From NCBI RefSeq assembly GCF_020216025.1, contig NZ_JAIWNC010000012.1, forward strand, positions 1 through 64,000: DNA of 64,000 nt. The letters are read 5' to 3'. Origin of the DNA: Jidongwangia harbinensis (GTDB lineage: Bacteria > Actinomycetota > Actinomycetes > Mycobacteriales > Micromonosporaceae). The notes under the pieces are model-generated. The model saw only the letters and a list, made by a program, of their open reading frames with translations. It searched no databases and had not been told where the DNA came from. Made by a program: the position numbers and the translations under genes. Position 1 is the stretch's first letter; the number at the start of each line of letters is the position of its first letter. Positions 22,865-35,757 of the stretch are shown one piece after another.

Positions 22865-23001
22865 GGGTCACAGTCTGGCATGCCGCACCGGGCGGCCGCC
22901 GCCTCCCCGGCCGCGTCCCGAGGTGCGGACCGGGGGCTTCGTGGTGTGGGGCTTTCGGCGTGCGTGTGGCGTCGAGCGTGTGGATCTCGAGCGCGGGGCT
23001 G

Positions 23002-23277
23002 GAGGAGCGTGAGGATTTCGAGCGCGCGGGGCCAGAGGAGCGTGAGATTTCGAGCGCGGGGCCAGAGGAGCGTGAGGACTTCGAGCGCGCGGGGCCAGAG
23101 GAGCGTCAGGACTTCGAGCGCGCGGGGCCAGAGGAGCGTCAGGACTTCGAGCGCGCGGGGCCAGAGGAGCGTCAGGACTTCGAGCGCCGGGCCGGAGCGT
23201 GAGGACTTCGAGCGCCGGGCCGGAGCGTGAGGACTTCGAGCGCCGGGCCGGAGCGTGAGGACTTCGAGCGCCGGGCC
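23002..23277. repeat. Compound minisatellite: six 30-33-bp units then three 28-bp units
   Basis: Units of GAGGAGCGTGAGGACTTCGA plus GCGCGCGGGGCCA start at 23002, 23035, 23065, 23098, 23131 and 23164. They are followed by three 28-base derivatives (GGAGCGTGAGGACTTCGAGC plus GCCGGGCC) at 23194, 23222 and 23250. The 28-base form is a deletion derivative of the longer unit. Units are contiguous with no unique spacers, so this is not CRISPR. Confidence 0.93.
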
Positions 23278-26427: not shown

Positions 26428-29112
26428 TCAGGCGGCGTCACCGACCGCCTTCTCCACCGCCGCCAACAACGCCGGCACCTGATCCGCCGGCACGCCGCCA
26501 CCCTGCGCGAGGTCGGCGTTACCGCCGCCCCGGCCGGACAGCGCACCCTTGACCAGGTCGGCCGCGGACAGTCCGCGGCCCTTGGCCGCCGCGTTCAGCG
26601 CCACGATCAGCGACGCCTTGCCGTTGGCGCGCGCCGTCACCGCGACCACCGCGGGGCGGGCCGCGTCGATCTTGCCACGGATCTCCTGCGCGAGGGTACG
26701 CACGTCGTTGCCCGCTGCCCCCTCGGGTGCCTCGGTGCCCACGTACGCCACTCCACGCACATCCTTCGCCTGCGCCGCGAGCGCGCCCGCACCGCCCAGC
26801 ACCATCTGGGCGCGCAGCTTCTCCAGTTCCTTCTCCGCGTCCCGCAGCGCCGTCACGGTCTGCTCGACCCGGTCCGCGACCTGGTCGCCGGGGACCCGGA
26901 ACAGCTCCGCCAGCCGGGACACCAGCAGGTGCTCCTTGGCCAGGAAACCGAACGCGTCGATGCCGACCAGCGCCTCGACCCGGCGCACCCCGGAACCGAT
27001 GGACGACTCGTGCAGGATCTTCACCACGCCGAGCTGGCCGGAGCGGGCCACGTGGGTGCCACCGCACAGTTCCCGTGCGTAGTCGCCGACCTCGACCACC
27101 CGTACCTCGTCGCCGTACTTCTCACCGAACAGCGCCATCGCGCCCAGCCGGCGCGCCTCCTCCTGCGAGGTGATGAACGCGTGCACCTCGAGGTCGCGCA
27201 GCAGCACCTCGTTGACCTGCTGCTCCACGTCGTGCAGCACGGACGGCGACACCGCGCCCGGGGTGTTGAAGTCGAACCGCAGCCGGCCCGGCGCGTTCAG
27301 CGAACCCGCCTGGGTGGCCGACTCGCCGAGGAAGTCGCGCATGGTCTGGTGGATCAGGTGCGTCGCGGTGTGCGAGCGGGAGATCGCCTTGCGCCGGGTC
27401 ACGTCGATCTCGGCGAAGCCGGCCTCACCGGCACGCACCTCGCCGCGGACCACCCGCGCCTTGTGCACGATCAGGCCGGGCAGCGGCTGCTGCACGTCGA
27501 CCACCTCGACCTGGCCGCCGCCCACGTTGATCAGGCCGGTGTCCGCCTGCTGGCCACCGCCCTCGGCGTAGAACGGCGTGGTGTCCAGGATGAGTTCCAC
27601 GAACTCGCCCTCGCCGGCCGCCGGGATGCTCGCGCCGCCGGAACCCAGTACCGCCCGGACCCGGGACTCGCGGGAGACCTCTTGGTAGCCGGTGAACTCG
27701 ACCGGGCCGCCCGCGTCCAGCACCGCACGGTACGCCGACAGGTCCAGGTGACCGGTCTTGCGCGCCGCCGCGTCCGCCTTGGCACGGGACCGCTGGTCCG
27801 CCATCAGCCGGCGGAAGCCGTCCTGGTCGACCTGCAGCCCCTGCTCGGCCGCGATCTCCAGGGTCAGGTCGATCGGGAAGCCGTACGTGTCGTGCAGCTG
27901 GAACGCCTGCGCGCCGGAGAGGGTCTGCTCCCCCGCCGCCTTCTTCTCGGTGATCGCGGTGTCCAGGATGGTGGTGCCGGCGCGCAGGGTGGACAGGAAC
28001 GCGTCCTCCTCCGCGTACGCGTAGGTGGAGATCCGGCCGAACTCCTCGGCCAGTTCCGGGTACGACGGGGACATGCAGTCCCGCGCCACCGGCAGCAGCT
28101 CGGGCAGCGCCGCACCCTGCCAGCCGAGCAGCCGCATGGCCCGGATCGCCCGGCGCATGATCCGGCGCAGCACGTACCCGCGGCCCTCGTTGCTCGGCGT
28201 GACGCCGTCACCGATCAGCATCAGCGAGGTGCGCACGTGGTCCGCGATGACCCGCAGGCGTACGTCGTCGGGGTGGGACTGGTTCGCCGCGTGGCCGGAC
28301 TGCGTGCCGTACCGCTTGCCGGTCAGCGCCGCCGCCCGGTCCAGGATCGGCTTGACCTCGTCGATCTCGTACAGATTGTCGACGCCCTGCAGGATCGACG
28401 CGATCCGCTCCAGGCCCATGCCGGTGTCGATGTTCTTGGCCGGCAGCTCGCTGACGATCCGGAACTCCTCCTTGGAGCGGACGTCGGCGATCTCGTACTG
28501 CATGAAGACCAGGTTCCAGAACTCCAGGTACCGGTCCTCGTCGACCTCCGGGCCGCCGTCCGGGCCGTAGTCCGGCCCGCGGTCGTAGTACAGCTCGGAG
28601 CACGGTCCGGCCGGGCCCGGGATGCCCATCGACCAGTAGTTGTCCTTCTTGCCGCGGCGCACGATCCGCTCGGCCGGCAGGCCGGTGCGCCGCCACAGGT
28701 CGATCGCCTCGTCGTCGTCGAGGTAGACGGTCGCCCAGATCCGCTCCGGGTCCATGCCGAACCCGCCCTCGGTGACCGGCCGGGTGGACAGATCCCAGGC
28801 CAGCTGGATCGCACCCTCCTTGAAGTAGTCACCGAAGGAGAAGTTGCCGTTCATCTGGAAGAACGTGCCGTGCCGGCTGGTCTTGCCGACCTCGTCGATG
28901 TCCGGGGTACGGATGCACTTCTGCACGCTCGTCGCCCGCTGGTACGGCGGGGTCCGCTGGCCCAGGAAGAACGGCACGAACTGGACCATGCCGGCGTTGA
29001 TGAACAGCAGGTTCGGGTCGTCGATGGCCGGCAGCGGGGCACTCGGCACGACCGCGTGCCCGTTGGCCTCGAAATGCGCCAGAAAGCGCCGTTTGATCTC
29101 CGCCGTCTTCAT
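26428..29112 (-). CDS. alaS: Alanyl-tRNA synthetase
   Basis: Charges tRNA-Ala; 894 residues. The class II catalytic core begins [18 protein letters not shown] with [15 protein letters not shown]. The editing domain has the metal motifs [10 protein letters not shown] and ELCGGTHV, and the C-terminal DHHA1/oligomerisation region ends [19 protein letters not shown]. It overlaps the small membrane protein gene by 4 bases at its 5' end. Confidence 0.97.
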
Positions 29113-29414
29113 CGCTGGCCCTCCTGGGCATGCCGCCCGCGTGTGCCGGTCTGCTCGTCGTCGCGCAGGTCGGCGAACTCGTCGTGATACAACTCGCCCG
29201 AGGCGAAGGCCTGCTGGATCTCCTGCTCCCGTTCGGCCATGCCGATGCGGACGTCGTCCACGAAGCTACGCATCGACTCGACCAGGCCGCCAGCGGATTC
29301 CGAGAGCGACGTGGCGATGCCGGACGGGGTGAACTCGTTCGCCTTCCGGGTCAGCTTGCGGACGGCGAGGGCGCCGACCGCGAGACCGACACCGAGCCAA
29401 AGAAGGCGCTTCAT
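29109..29414 (-). CDS. Small membrane-anchored protein of unknown function
   Basis: 101 residues from ATG 29414. An N-terminal membrane helix ([20 protein letters not shown], residues 2-21) is followed by a soluble, charged, probably helical tail with [25 protein letters not shown] know no function. Proteins of this shape commonly sit between a DUF948 gene and alaS in actinobacteria, and the 4-base overlap with alaS argues for co-expression. The longer upstream start lacks a ribosome site. Confidence 0.75.
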
Positions 29415-29439
29415 GTGGATGGTTCCCTTCTCGGAAAGC

Positions 29440-29898
29440 TCAGCGGGCGGCGCGGGCGGCCTTGCGGCGCTGCTTGAGGGTGGCACGGACCTCGCGCTCG
29501 TCCTCCGCGTGGCGGCGGGCGGCGGCGGCCTTGCGCACGCCGTAACCGAACGAGGCCACCTTGATCAACGGGTTGGCGGCCGCCGCGGACACGACGGTGG
29601 CCAGGTTGGCCACGCTGGCCGTGACGTTCTGCGCGTGGCTGGTCATCGTGTCGACCTTGGCGAGCTGGAGGTTCACACCGTCCAAAGTGACCTGGACCTG
29701 TCCGAGCGCGGTGTTGACGTGCTGCACGGACTGGTTGACGTCACCCAGCAGCGGGCCGGTGCGCTCGTTCAGCTCGTTGATCGTCCGGGTGGCCGCGTCC
29801 ACGGTCTTGCCGAGCTTCAGAATCGGTACGGCGAGCACGAGGACGAGCATCAGGAAGGCGCCCGCCGCGATCAGGCCTGCGATTTCTCCGGCGTCCAT
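29440..29898 (-). CDS. DUF948 family membrane protein
   Basis: 152 residues. One N-terminal membrane helix (IAGLIAAGAFLMLVLVLAVPIL) is followed by a long amphipathic/coiled-coil stretch (KTVDAATRTINELNERTG through VDTMTSHAQNVTASVANLATVV) and a basic tail. This fits the DUF948 family; function unknown. ATG 29898 is preferred over the TTG three bases earlier because GAGGAG lies 7 bases upstream. Confidence 0.82.
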   Translation of the reverse strand: MDAGEIAGLIAAGAFLMLVLVLAVPILKLGKTVDAATRTINELNERTGPLLGDVNQSVQHVNTALGQVQVTLDGVNLQLAKVDTMTSHAQNVTASVANLATVVSAAAANPLIKVASFGYGVRKAAAARRHAEDEREVRATLKQRRKAARAAR

Positions 29899-29980
29899 CA
29901 AGCGTCTCCTCTACTGGCGGGTGATCGGGTCGTACGGCAGGACAACGTGCAGACCCTACCGTCCGTGACCGCTGCCCGCG

Positions 29981-32900
29981 TCACGACGGTGACGGTGTCG
30001 GCTCCAGAAGAGGATCGTTACTGAGAACGGGATCCGGCGTCTCGCCCACCGGCCCCGGCGTGACCGGTTTGCCGCGCGGATCGGTGACCGCGTTCTGCAC
30101 CTTGATGCTGACCGTCGAGCCGACACACTTCTCCGGGTCCGCGGTGGGCACCACGCCGCTGGACGGCACAGCCGCCGGGTTCTGCGCGGCGACCGCGTCC
30201 ACCGCACACTGCGGCAGCCGCACCCACAGGTCCAGAGTGAACTCGTCACGCCGCCAGCAGGTGTACCGGCCGTCCGTGACCGGCTGCTCCGGGCACGCGG
30301 CGACCTGCCACGACTGCCAACCGGCGCCCTTGAGCGCGGTGGCGTACGCGTTGGCGGTCTCCTCGAACGGCCGCTCCGACTGGGCGGTACGTTCGCGGAA
30401 CCGGCACTCCAGGAAGCACCACCGGCTGCCGCTGCTGCGGTCGTCGACGTCGTTCGCCGCCCAGGACGGCACGTCGAGCGCGTCCAGCGAGTGGAAGACC
30501 GGGTCCCGGCTCACCGACCGGATGCCGAACAACAACGGCAGCAGGCCCAGCACCACCACGCTGAGCGACACCAGGGTCAGCACCCGCAGGCGGCGCTTGG
30601 CCCGCAACTGCCGGCGCAGCTGGGAACGGGCGCCGCGCAGGCCCCCCGCCTGGTCGGAGTCGTCCCGATCGGGGGCCGGGACCGGATCGGCGCCGGGTCG
30701 GACCACGGCCGGCGGCCGGGCCGGGGCGCCGGCGACACTCGCCCGGGCCACCCCGGTCGGGCCGTCGTCATGGATCGGGGGTACGGCCGCACCGGCGGCC
30801 CGGCCGGTCGCCGGAGTGCCGACCACGCGGCCGGACGGCGGTTCGACGGCGGCGCGGGCCGGGCCGGGCGGACGACCCGCATCGGCCGGGGGTGCGGCAG
30901 CGGAACCCGCGGCGGTTCGTGCCGTCGGACCGGCGCCGGGGCGAATCGGCGCCGAGGCACCGGCGCGGGCCGGAGATCCGGCGCCGGGACGGACCGGCGC
31001 CACGGCGCCCGGGCGGACCGTTCCGGTGCTGGACGCCCGGGACGACACGGGCCCGGACTGGTCGGTACCCGGCGGCGCGGCCGGTGGGCGGGCGCGGCCG
31101 GCCGGCTGACCGGGTCCGGGCGGGGCTGGCGCGGCGGCCCGGCCGGTGACGTCGCCCGGAAGGGGCCGTGCCGGGTCGCCCGGAAGTGGGCGAGCAGGAT
31201 CGCCCGGAAGTGGGCGAGCCGCGTCACCCGGCAGCGGGCGAGCAGGATCGCCCGGAAGTGGGCGAGCCGCGTCACCGGGAAGTGGGCGAGCCGGGTCGCC
31301 GGCCAGCGGGCGAGCCGGGTCGCCGGGTAGCGGGCGTGCGGGTGCCGGCGGGTTTAGCTGGCCGGGCGCCGGTGCGGCGGCCCGGGACGTCACCTCGCCG
31401 GTAGCGTGCCGGCTACGGCCGGTCACGTCGCCCGTGGGCGAGGGTCCGGCCGGCCGGATCGGCTGACTGACCGTCCCGGGTTGCCGCCGGGCCGGAGGCG
31501 GGGAACCTGGCTGGCCCACGCCGGGCTGAGTGCCGCCCGGCTGGCCGAAGCCCGGTGGGGTGACGCCGGGTGGGGTGACGCCGGGTGGGGTGACGCCGGG
31601 TGGGGCCGCGCCGGGCCGGACCGCGCCCGGGGGTGTCGTCCCTGGGTTCGGGGCACCCGCACGGCCGGGGTCGGTCGGGTCGGCGCCGGGCGGGACCGCG
31701 GCCGGCCGGACCTGTCCCCGCGTGGGGCGGCCACGCTGAGGCGCCTGCCGCGGCGGCGAACCCGGCTGTGCCGAACCGGTCACCTGGCCGGTGCCGGCAG
31801 CGCCGCCCGCTGCGCCCGGTCTGCCCGGCCGGGGCAGCCGGCCGCTGGCCCGGCCGGCGGGCGTCCCCGGGGCTTCGCCGGGACGTTGAATGACTCCGGA
31901 CGGGCTGTCCGCCATGGCTCCGGCCCGTCCCGGGACGGCCGGGGTGCGCGCACCCTGTCGACCCGGTACCACCGGTGGAACCACGGCGGCCGAGGCGCGT
32001 GCGGGCTGAGCAGGCCGGGCCGGGCCAGGCACGGCCGGCTGGCCCGGGACGGCGGGGTTCCGGCCGGGACGGCCCCGGCCCTGGGTACCGACGGGCCACC
32101 CGCCGGTACGGTCCTCCGCCGCATCCGGCGCGGCCGGGTCCCGGCCGGGACGGCCCCGGCCCTGGGTACCGACGGGCCACCCGCCGGTGCGGTCCTCGGC
32201 TGGGTCCGGAGCGGCCCGGCGGCCGGCGCCCGAGGTGGGCCGGGTGCCGCCGAGGCCGCCGCCCGGAATGGGCCCGGAGTGCTGACCGCCCGAAACCGGG
32301 GCACCCGGACCGGGCACCGCACGCTGACCACCGGGCACGGCATGCTGACCACCGGACGCCGCATGCTGCCCGCCCGGAACGTGCTGACCGCCCGATCCGT
32401 GCTGACCGCCCGGAACGTGCTGACCACCGGACCCGTACTGGCCGCCGGAGACATGCTGACCACCGGAAGCGTGCTGACCGCCGGAGACCGGCGCCGACGC
32501 GGGCCGGGAGTGCTGACCGCCGGAGATCGGCCGGGAGACCGGACCGGAGTACGGCCCGCCCGAGACCGGACCGGAGTGCTGACCGCCCGAGACCGGACGC
32601 GGCATCGGCCCGGAATGCTGGCCGCCCGGGGCGGGACCGGAATGCTGGCCGCCCGGGGCGGGACCGGAATGCTGGCCGCCCGGGGCCGGGGCGGAATGCT
32701 GGCCGCCCGGGGAGTGCTGGCCGTGGCGGCCGCCGTCGGTGTCGGGCCGGCCGTGCCGCCCGGTCCCCTCGTCGGCGTCGTCGGGTGCGGGCAGGCGGGC
32801 GCGCCGGCCGGTGGCACCGCCGCCGTACCGGTTCTCGGCGTCGTCCGGGTCGGGCCGGAAACGGCGACCGGTCCCCCGGCCGTCGGTGTCCCGCGTCGGC

Positions 32901-33970
32901 ACCTGGGCGTATTCGCCGCTGGCGTGCCGGCCGGTCGGGTAGTCGTCGGCCGGCGTGGGACGGGGCGGCTCGGCATGACGGGACGGCCCGTCCGCCGGCG
33001 CCGGGAAGCGGCCCGCGGGGACGCCCGCCGGCCCGGGCGGGGCGGCGTGCCCGGCCGGGCGTGGTGCGGCCGGATCGGCGGTGGGGGTGCCGTACTGGCC
33101 GGGTACCCGGCCGGTGCCACGCGGCGGCACGGCGGACGGCGGTACCTCGGGGGCGTTTCCGGTCAGCGGGACGGCCGACACCGGCCCGGACGGACCGTAG
33201 CGGCCGGGCGGGGCGGACACCGGGCCCGCGGAGGGGGTACCGCCGCGTCGGGCCGGCGGCGGGACGGACGGGGGCACGGCGGACGGCGGCACGGCGGACG
33301 GCGGACGGCCGGCCGGAGGTTGGCCGGAAGGCGGTTGGGCGGGCGGACCGGACACCGGCCGGCCGGCGCCGGGCGGGGGCGGCGCGACCGGCGGAATCCG
33401 GCCGCCGAATTGTCCGGAAGTCATCTGCCGACGACTCTGACCTGGCCCGGACCCGTCCGGCGCGACTCCGTCCGCGGGGCGGCGGCCGGGCGGCGGCGCG
33501 ACACCCTCCGACGGACGCCGGCCGGGCGGCGGCGCGACACCCTCCGACGGACGCCGGCCGGGCGGCGGCGCGACACCTTCGGACGGGCCCCGGCCGGGCG
33601 GCGGTGCCGCGCCCTCCGGGGAACGGCGGCCGCGGACCGGGGCGGCGGGCGGCGGCGTGGACGCACCGGGGCCTGCCGGGTCGGCGTTGCTCAGGTAGCC
33701 GGGCAGGTCGTCGTCGGGTTCCTCGTCCGGCCCGGGCGCCACCTTGCCGGACTTGCTGGCCCGGCCTTCGCCCGGTGTGCCCGGTCCGATCGCACCGCGT
33801 TGCTGCTTGGCGGTGCGCAGGTCGTCGAGCCAGCCGGTCTCCTCGGTGGGCACCACTTCGGGCTCGACCGGCTCCGGGCGGCCGCGGCCGAACAGCCGGC
33901 GACTCCGGCCGGTCTGCTCGCTGCGCTGGTCGGCGTCGTCGTCGGGCCGCTCGGCACCCCGCGGTGTCAC
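29981..33970 (-). CDS. 1,329-residue disordered protein with one membrane helix and a Cys-rich external domain
   Basis: I know no family for this protein. The first roughly 1,100 residues are Pro/Gly/Ala/Arg-rich and repetitive. Visible blocks are [12 protein letters not shown] units, about ten GGQHSGP-type units, GVTPP units and eight ARPLPGDP octapeptides. A basic stretch ([11 protein letters not shown]) precedes a single helix ([21 protein letters not shown], about 1,130-1,150). About 180 residues follow with six cysteines ([32 protein letters not shown]), suited to three disulfides outside the cell. The GTG start overlaps the rarA stop by 4 bases, implying coupled translation. Confidence 0.8.
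31150..31345 (-). repeat. 24-bp in-frame array encoding ARPLPGDP octapeptides
   Basis: Eight to nine tandem 24-base units inside the giant RarA-linked gene encode ARPLPGDP or ARPLPGDA octapeptides. The unit is a multiple of three, so copy number can vary without a frameshift. Confidence 0.85.
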
Positions 33971-35757
33971 GGCTGTCCCTTCTCGGCGGTCTCGGCACCG
34001 CCGTCGTCCTGCCCTGCCCGGTCTCGGTCCGTCCTGTCCTGCTCAACCGCGCTGCCCGGCTCAACCTTGCCGTCCGGCGCAACCTTGCCGTCCGGCGCAA
34101 CCTTGCCGTCCGGCGCAACCACGCTGCCCGGCTCAACCACGCTGCCCGGCTCAACCACGCTGCCCGGCTCAACCACGCTGCCCGGCCCGGTCGCGCCGGG
34201 CGGCCCGGAGATGCGCGCCGCGTCCTCCGGGGCCGGGCCGTCCGGCCCGGAAGCAGCACCGGGCAGAGAGCCTACGGTCGATCGAGCCGTCCCGCCTTCG
34301 GCCGAAGGGCCGACGGGCGTACCCACGCCGGAACCGTGCCCGACCGCCCCCCGATCGCGTGCGACCGGGTCGGCACCGCGTGCCGCGGTGCCGCGGACGA
34401 TGCGCCGCAGCCGGGGCAGCCGGTCCACCACGGCACGCTCGGCGCCGTGGTCGGAGGGGTGGTAGTAGTCCGCGCCGACCAGGTCGTCGGGCGCGTACTG
34501 CTGGGTGACCACGCCGCGTGGGTCGTCGTGTGGGTAGCGGTAGCCCTTGCCGTGACCCAGGCCACGTGAGCCCGGATAGTGGGAGTCGCGCAGGTGGGCC
34601 GGCACCGCGCCGCCGCGGCCGGCGCGGACGTCGGCCATCGCGGCGCCGAGAGCGGTGGTGACGCTGTTCGACTTGGGCGCGGTGGCCAGGTGCACGACGG
34701 CCTGGGCCAGGTTCAGCTGGGCCTCGGGCAGGCCGACCTGCTGCACCGCCTGGGCCGCGGCGGTCGCCACCTGCAGCGCCTGCGGGTCGGCCATGCCGAC
34801 GTCCTCGCTGGCGAAGATCACGATGCGGCGGGCGATGAACCGGGCGTCCTCGCCGGCCACCAGCATGCGGGCCAGCCAGTGCAGCGCCGCGTCCGGGTCG
34901 GAGCCGCGCATGCTCTTGATGAACGCGCTGGTCACGTCGTAGTGGGCGTCGCCGTCGCGGTCGTAGCGCACGGCCGCGATGTCGACCGCCTTCTCCGCGG
35001 TGGCCAGGTCGATCTCGGCCACGCCCTGGGCGGCCGCGGACGACGCCGCCGCCTCCAGCGCGGTCAGTGCCTTGCGGACGTCGCCGCCGGCCAGGCGTAC
35101 CAGATGCTCCTCGGCCTCGGCGGCGAGCGTGACCGCGCCGCCCAGGCCGCGCGGATCGGCGACCGCGCGGCGGATCAGGGTGCGCACCGCGTCGGTGTCC
35201 AGGGACTGGAGGGTGAGCAGGACGCAGCGGGACAACAGCGGAGAGATGACCGAGAAGTACGGATTCTCCGTGGTCGCGGCGAGCAGCGTGACCGTGCGGT
35301 CCTCGACGGCCGCGAGCAGGGAGTCCTGCTGGGTCTTGCTGAACCGGTGCACCTCGTCGATGAACAGCACGGTGGGCGGCCCGCCGGCGCGGCGCTGGCG
35401 GCGGGCGGTCTCGATCACCGCGCGCACGTCCTTGACGCCGGCGGAGAGCGCCGACATGGCCACGAACTTACGGTCCGTAGCGGCGGCCACCAGATGAGCG
35501 ATGGTCGTCTTGCCGGTGCCGGGCGGTCCCCACAGGATCACCGACATCGGGGTGGCACCGGTGACGAGTTGCCGCAGCGGCGCGCCGGGCGCCAGCAGAT
35601 GCTTCTGGCCGACCAGCTCATCGATGCTGGCCGGGCGCATCCGGACGGGCAGCGGCGAGTCCGCGGAGGGCGCGGCGAAACCGGCGGACGGCCCGTCGGA
35701 CGTCGCCGTGGTGCCGACGCCGCCCGGCTGCAGGGGGAAGAGCCCGTCGAGTTCCAT
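33967..35757 (-). CDS. rarA: Replication-associated recombination protein A (RarA/MgsA)
   Basis: AAA+ ATPase that acts at stalled replication forks. The 596-residue product has Walker [17 protein letters not shown], Walker [16 protein letters not shown], sensor [11 protein letters not shown] and the C-terminal MgsA region [15 protein letters not shown] and [12 protein letters not shown]. Family members are about 430-450 residues. Here roughly 140 extra disordered C-terminal residues follow, including four GSVVEP-type and three APDGKV hexapeptides. The ATG at 35757 is the best start; the longer upstream frame overlaps the MFS gene. Confidence 0.93.
34060..34190 (-). repeat. 18-bp in-frame repeats at the rarA 3' end
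   Basis: Seven tandem 18-base units near the gene end encode three hexapeptides of the APDGKV type and four of the EPGSVV type. They sit in the disordered tail after the conserved RarA domains. Confidence 0.85.

Follow-up and report, generated by a model that had tools for sequence, protein, structure and literature searches.

What is encoded by a reading frame of 1,329 codons that opens on the stop codon of rarA, and does its product have anything to do with RarA? The question is raised by a 64,000-nucleotide (nt) stretch of Jidongwangia harbinensis DNA (family Micromonosporaceae; contig NZ_JAIWNC010000012.1, positions 1 to 64,000), referred to here as the window, in which the frame, named gene X below, occupies 29981..33970 on the minus strand. 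A first-pass annotation, made from the letters alone, had described a Pro/Gly-rich frame of this length with a GTG overlapping the rarA stop by four bases, a single membrane helix, six cysteines and no known family; the open reading frame (ORF) and junction sequence, one hydrophobic segment, six cysteines and the lack of any Pfam or NCBIfam match at E 1 bear this description out. Comparison of sequences across relatives indicates that a small domain at the C-terminus of X is constant while its anchor varies, being in turn a lipoprotein, a short membrane protein, or a membrane protein with a giant arm. Our preferred explanation, for which we see roughly even chances, is that X is an envelope protein particular to the family, crossing the membrane once and built around this small exoplasmic domain, and that in one group of genera, the crown clade, the arm serves as a flexible tether carrying one docking helix.

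Reading frame and start of gene X

X runs from 33970 to 29981, and its GTG (33970-33968) shares a four-base overlap with the rarA stop TGA (33969-33967), so that the junction reads CAGCCGTGACACC. A Shine-Dalgarno-like element, AGAAGGGA, lies upstream of this start at 33976..33983 on the minus strand, within the last rarA codons. The open frame alone means little, since long ORFs are cheap in DNA of about 80% guanine-cytosine (GC) content, and others of 864–1,019 codons overlap X. Third-position GC across the arm is 0.74–0.90 per 100 codons; codon-position GC was dropped as proof of coding there, because all three positions are high at 80% GC. The case for coding was built instead on a cross-species count of open frames, a control for the start signal and a check of the frame of the conserved tip motif described below.

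For this, 40 loci were fetched (34 from other genera and six from the same genus); L and G numbers denote loci and genomes, and g1–g44 the genus labels of the search set. In 26 of the 31 long-form loci (the window and 30 others) no stop interrupts the X frame between the end of rarA and the domain; the other two forward frames are open throughout this stretch in 1 and 0, and the reverse frames in 5, 5 and 2. In L047, one of the five loci scored as not open, the stop belongs to rarA itself; in another, L045, the frame is open if read from a start about 100 nt further on. A start codon with the four-base overlap, open to the end of X, is found in 30 of 39 loci (the window and the 38 with rarA); the other nine include L044, which starts at -1, and L047, which starts at 0. 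Upstream of the overlapping start, at a distance of 4–18 nt, a Shine-Dalgarno-like duplex with a free energy of -6 kcal/mol or below is present in 25 of the 30 coupled loci, compared with 22.5% of 690 control windows taken from earlier parts of rarA. Many loci also share similar RarA C-terminal ends (AGExHQ, AGKEQ), which we read as a Shine-Dalgarno element written in the rarA frame. It is this cross-species comparison of frames, not ORF length in a single genome, that decides the matter, and by it X looks like a real protein.

The protein belongs to no family in the databases searched: full-length X matches no Pfam or NCBIfam family at E 1, and 41 aligned domain sequences compared with Pfam-A gave a best single-row E of 0.042, with five families reached at E 1 and none common to two rows. 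No description of X was found among titles and abstract openings in the open-licence literature on RarA and membranes, on Mog1/PsbP/LpqN, on disorder in Micromonosporaceae, on Rv2559c/Rv2560 or on Actinoplanes RarA.

The exoplasmic domain and the membrane helix

A single membrane helix is predicted at residues 1125–1154 (30509..30598, minus strand), with a strongly basic N-terminal flank. Over the 41 domain rows the flank N-terminal to the helix has a mean charge of +4.7 and the C-terminal one of -1.0, the former being the higher in 38 of 41; the more positive N-flank places the arm inside and the domain outside. Beyond the helix, residues 1156–1300 (30071..30505, minus strand) form a predicted alpha/beta domain with cysteines at 1185, 1189, 1226, 1238, 1255 and 1282. 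Five of the cysteine columns are invariant in 41 of 41 rows, while the sixth, C103, is kept in 40 of 41, and the six conserved residues presumably form three disulfides.

An AlphaFold2 model of helix and domain has a mean predicted local distance difference test score (pLDDT) of 84.9. In VIA-align the six highest rows for the domain are 1tu1/PA94 (Z 8.1), EagT6 (8.1), SciW (7.9 and 7.8), DcrB (7.5) and LppA (7.0), with root-mean-square deviations of 2.8–5.6 over 90–113 aligned residues; BamC, MOG1, MTC28 (Z 5.5), PsbP and TiME follow lower down, amid unrelated rows of similar Z. The first of these structures, 1tu1, is described as Mog1p/PsbP-like in PMC4524185, and a Mog1/PsbP-like fold is likely for the modelled X domain. 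At the sequence level, a search of PDB sequences returned nothing useful (best E 1, a metal transporter), and no LpqN/MTC28-type profile match was found among the 41 rows against Pfam at E 1 or in PDB sequences.

The cytoplasmic arm and its tip

Residues 1–1125 (30596..33970, minus strand) constitute a cytoplasmic arm, repeat-rich, net positive and, judged from its composition, disordered; residues 1–1120 are 21% Pro, 19% Gly, 14% Ala and 10% Arg. The arms of 29 loci (L059 partial) have a similar composition, dominated by Pro, Gly, Ala and Arg, in which Lys is far rarer than Arg, and span 216–1,757 residues; the shortest, that of L052, lies outside the crown clade, within which arms are 320–1,760 residues long. 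Net charge is positive in 28 of the 29, the exception being L052. Exact eight-residue repeats cover 0–41% of the arms, whose DNA contains many tandem arrays, and between tip and helix, a stretch left unaligned, no family-wide conserved sequence was noticed.

Near the N-terminus stands the tip (residues 43–57; 33800..33844, minus strand), with the consensus EExGW[LI]xDLRxAK in 28 of the 31 long-form loci: in 26 it lies near the rarA stop, and in L039 and L045 further down. It is absent from L046, L052 and L055. The tip lies 18–48 residues from the overlap position in 25 of 26 loci, and in 26 sequences, chosen for holding the motif, E43, G46, W47, D50, L51 and A54 are invariant. Residues 46–57 are predicted, at low confidence (mean pLDDT 62.6), as an isolated helix in an otherwise disordered chain. 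The motif's sole match at E 10 in the genome of the window is X itself (150 of 626 first-look candidates scored). Among 296 class genomes, no convincing tip was found beyond the family: 19 pass E 0.1, three of them Micromonosporaceae, and the matches outside (best E 9.9e-4) cover only pieces of the profile and were judged, without individual inspection, to be chance. Tip and arm look like a docking peptide on a tether. The tip is followed in four related genera (L047, L048, L050, L051) by another short N-terminal motif, of the type RWSKLSAL or RWAKLSAL.

The arm may be asked to do less. Neutral repeat expansion in the GC-rich rarA/X junction could have extended the RarA tail together with the N-terminus of X, leaving the arm without a function of its own and the domain alone under selection. 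The variation of crown arms between about 320 and 1,760 residues, their repeat content and tandem arrays are all what such expansion would leave behind, as is the covariation of RarA tail and X length (rho 0.74, n=33 of 39 loci; rho 0.56 among 26 long forms only; kinship uncorrected in both). The correlation leaves out L034, L039, L045 and L059, set aside as frame-broken (L045 later proved intact), and L035 and L063, which have no tail value; we draw no function from it. Against neutral expansion stand the frame kept open in 26 of 31 loci, the invariant tip residues (within motif-selected sequences) and the positive charge of nearly every arm, and we consider it rather unlikely.

Distribution and linkage to rarA

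The orthologue search with the C-terminal part alone, which the first-pass annotation had proposed, showed that part to be conserved: sequences matching the last 206 residues of X occur in every one of 60 sampled genomes of the genus (its own included), and the domain occurs in 287 of 300 sampled Micromonosporaceae genomes and 39 of 44 genera. Among named records the closest are Pseudosporangium ferrugineum, at 76% identity, and species of the Actinoplanes type, which suggests that the window belongs to the Actinoplanes group; the nearest records to the window itself may be missing from this ranking. Thirteen family genomes gave no domain match; five belong to genera g13 and g23, and the other eight were searched for rarA. 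Two of these eight hold a lipoprotein, four have rarA followed by DUF948 and no recognisable X (L076, L078, L080, L081), one contig ends inside an X that carries the tip motif (L079), and G097 has no rarA match.

Beyond the family, a 41-row profile (A1) matches four of 394 class genomes, three of them Micromonosporaceae and the fourth a weak lipoprotein match (L074). A second profile (A4), built mainly from short and lipoprotein forms, passes E 0.01 in 17 of 296 class genomes, of which three are Micromonosporaceae and three (L216, L217 and L218) belong to genus g62 (E 5.3e-8 to 6.8e-6); in two g62 loci (L216, L218) the match is a membrane protein ending in a domain similar to that of X. The remaining 11 are weak (E 2.8e-4 to 0.009), L219, L222 and L224 being the ones looked at, and these class-wide searches score only part of the first-look candidates. 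On these searches X is specific to Micromonosporaceae, and its domain may have distant actinobacterial cousins.

That the two genes might not be adjacent in relatives had been named beforehand as a point on which their association could fall. In 38 of the 40 fetched loci the gene immediately before X, in the same orientation, is rarA; the other two contigs end first. A second set of 80 named loci, the best 80 of 158, shares genomes with the first (L199 and L039, for example), so the two sets are not independent; 56 of the 80 reach rarA, which is directly upstream of X in 56 of 56, and DUF948 follows X in all 80. The in-frame four-base overlap is found in 52 of the 56. The four exceptions, three Phytohabitans (L167, L173, L194) and one Catenuloplanes (L199), keep the tip, X starting downstream with the motif about 130–530 nt behind the rarA stop. 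Tip and domain stand in different frames in L173, L194 and L199/L039. An apparent X without rarA, in Actinoplanes sp. TFC3 (L135), was dismissed, since a 100-N gap sits in its arm.

In 24 of the 80 named loci (L134, L135, L137, L146, L150, L163, L164, L170 and L171 among them) a contig end, or in L135 the N gap, lies upstream of the X domain at a distance of no more than about 3.6 kb. The repeat-rich arm thus looks like a recurrent assembly breakpoint, and draft genomes may under-report X.

Outside the family, the gene after rarA was read in 29 loci of at most 3.5 kb each (the window's own, L097, being left out). It is DUF948 in at least 16 of 29, a lower bound as L091 was tallied as other despite its DUF948 match, and alaS in four, with other sequence in the rest. 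By gene order, X therefore sits inside an operon that elsewhere runs rarA-DUF948-alaS. In three of the 16, DUF948 itself starts at -4 relative to the rarA stop, and possibly in two more, so that coupling of this kind does not single out a partnership between RarA and X.

Short and lipoprotein forms

In seven loci from six genera (L057, L058, L060–L064) X is only 175–197 residues long, consisting of a short N-terminus, the helix and the domain; its cytoplasmic part comes to a few tens of residues, and its place behind rarA is unchanged. In genus g40 (L075, L077) the gene behind rarA encodes a lipoprotein of 131–132 residues with no cytoplasmic part, classed as such by a lipobox signal, MRT...ALALTGCGG, read by eye in both loci. 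Its homology to the X domain is shown by hhalign with a probability of 94.2 and E 1.1e-7 (93.6 for the mature part alone), while 120 column-shuffled controls reached a maximum probability of 14.8. Besides that of the lipobox it has only two cysteines, placed by hhalign near C103 and C115, and the retention of these two suggests that C103 and C115 form one disulfide.

A tree of RarA (73 rows) unites the Micromonosporaceae in one clade (100/99) and contains the crown clade of 33 rows (100/98), with 30 long forms (L079 counted by its tip), two loci lacking X and one short form of 247 residues. The family outside the crown clade comprises seven short forms, two lipoproteins, two absences and one motif-less form of 419 residues (L052). 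On the simplest reading of these sequences, the exoplasmic domain would be original and constant, and the arm an addition made in the crown lineage; it is also possible that lineages outside the crown lost an arm.

These forms bear directly on the suggestion of the first-pass annotation that RarA and X tether stalled replication to the envelope. In such a scheme the arm, or just its tip, docks on RarA or the replisome, and coupled translation feeds a complex that holds stalled forks at the envelope. It draws on the presence of rarA beside X in every locus that reaches it, on the in-frame overlap with an open frame behind it in 30 of 39 and 52 of 56 loci, and on the joint rise of tail and X lengths noted above. 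In Escherichia coli, gene pairs at short distance are enriched for subunits of the same complex, 30.4% versus 6.8% according to PMC10666635, which supplies a prior for a RarA-X complex. That prior is lowered by the short and lipoprotein forms, which occupy the same position with no arm, and by DUF948, which follows rarA elsewhere, in three of 16 cases with the identical overlap, and takes the same site in four family genomes with no recognisable X. Further, the three Phytohabitans and one Catenuloplanes loci keep the tip and have no overlap, and the RarA papers surveyed place RarA at forks or in foci, with no membrane partner named in the openings of their abstracts. The tether thus lacks support. 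As an ancestral function it is unlikely, given the arm-less forms behind rarA, and as an account of X in general we think it improbable. The arm of the long forms may still bind RarA. A fuller version, in which an existing exoplasmic domain gained an arm of 320–1,760 residues whose new tip helix recruits RarA or part of the replisome, linking fork to envelope through coupled synthesis, strikes us as very improbable.

Proposed function

Our preferred reading, of an exoplasmic core with an arm added in the crown, can be set out as a mechanism. The start of X on the rarA stop, behind a Shine-Dalgarno element within rarA, would set expression, and RarA need not be a partner. The outer domain is probably a module that binds proteins or ligands on the membrane's outer face, and would attach there to something in the wall layer or on the cell surface. 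In crown species the arm would act as a long flexible cytoplasmic tether with the docking helix EExGW[LI]xDLRxAK at its far end, and this helix might catch a cytosolic partner, which would then be held at, or signalled to from, the site of the exoplasmic domain. The length and sequence of the arm would be free to drift as long as it kept its reach, its solubility and a mild positive charge.

Several observations weigh against this reading. The frame is truly broken between tip and domain in L034, L039 and L059, and in two of the three named Phytohabitans; these breaks are either sequencing errors in the repeats or real loss. The crown loci L046 and L055 have a long arm and no recognisable tip, so the tip is not indispensable. 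A Foldseek search with the domain model gave no significant PDB match (best E 0.11), and the assigned fold rests on VIA-align, in which a Z of about 8 can, by the tool's own note, reflect a common arrangement. The direction from short to long is read from a single gene tree, whose branching at the root of the family is left open.

The same architecture would also suit transmembrane signalling, in which the outer domain senses a ligand or the state of the cell wall and alters the clustering of arms, so that the tip recruits a cytosolic enzyme or kinase. The topology, the cysteine-rich outer domain and the single conserved inner docking helix, as predicted, fit such a role; X holds no known catalytic or signalling domain at the Pfam/NCBIfam level, and in g40 the domain stands alone as a lipoprotein. 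We regard it as a slim prospect.

X defines an unnamed protein family, present in nearly all members of a family of actinomycetes that produce antibiotics. It also gives a natural series whose members have or lack a very long disordered arm on one face of the membrane and share a constant folded domain on the other. The conserved tip is a handle for finding partners, and swaps between relatives would allow the purpose of the arm to be tested.

RarA and the surrounding operon

The gene for RarA (33967..35757, minus strand) encodes 596 residues of the AAA+ ATPase family RarA/MgsA/WRNIP1, with matches to AAA (E 2.6e-19), AAA_assoc_2 (E 1.2e-24) and MgsA_C (E 1.2e-69). The first-pass annotation had noted about 140 extra disordered residues with hexapeptide repeats, and a disordered C-terminal tail of 141 residues beyond the core is indeed present (33967..34392 including the stop), within which an 18-bp array of 8.1 copies at 34041-34186 encodes the hexapeptide repeat. 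Tails of up to 178 residues occur in crown loci, in the window and in L037, L039, L066, L068, L069 and L070. In the 29 loci outside Micromonosporaceae, RarA has about 452–494 residues. Deleting rarA in E. coli is reported to have affected serS, the next gene downstream (PMC9012371).

Downstream of X on the minus strand follow a DUF948 membrane protein (29440..29901), a DUF6167-like small protein (29109..29486; 23.8 bits, below the Pfam cut-off of 27) and an ORF at 26428-29112 that we take to be alaS; the names ruvX, mltG and aroE further along the strand are likewise our assignments, made from their sequences. The Pfam run covered rarA, X, the DUF948 and DUF6167-like genes, and the major facilitator superfamily (MFS) gene upstream of rarA. 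Near aroE, 9.2 copies of a 33-bp unit (93% match) stand in tandem at 22991-23275 and give an open minus-strand frame with the repeat ALEVLTLLWPR.

Relation to known systems

The nearest structural relatives would be the Mog1/PsbP-like proteins. We take PA0094/EagT6, SciW, DcrB, PsbP, MOG1, LppA, MTC28/Rv0040c and TiME to share this fold; the predicted X domain aligns with such proteins at Z 5.0–8.1, and several of them are actinobacterial lipoproteins or secreted proteins. X differs from them in having no sequence match, six conserved cysteines, a membrane helix and, in the crown, a giant arm. By sequence profile, the closest are the g62 proteins, L216 (A4 E 5.3e-8) and L218 (6.8e-6), which have the common pattern LP...D...HGDRFC..GCP...R.Y...GW, and the lipoprotein of G460 (L074; A1 E 8.7e-4). 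Unlike X, these show no arm and have a different membrane part; no rarA lies within the 3.2 kb of L074, and the L216 match is on a different contig from that genome's rarA. The RarA of the window has the ordinary core of RarA/MgsA/WRNIP1 proteins, from which it departs, as do those of many crown loci, in its long disordered C-terminal tail.

Single-pass proteins of the ZipA/FtsN type combine one helix with a Pro-rich disordered linker and a small folded domain. X resembles them in architecture, with its one helix, long low-complexity linker and small folded domain; it differs in that its disordered part is predicted to lie in the cytoplasm and its folded domain outside.

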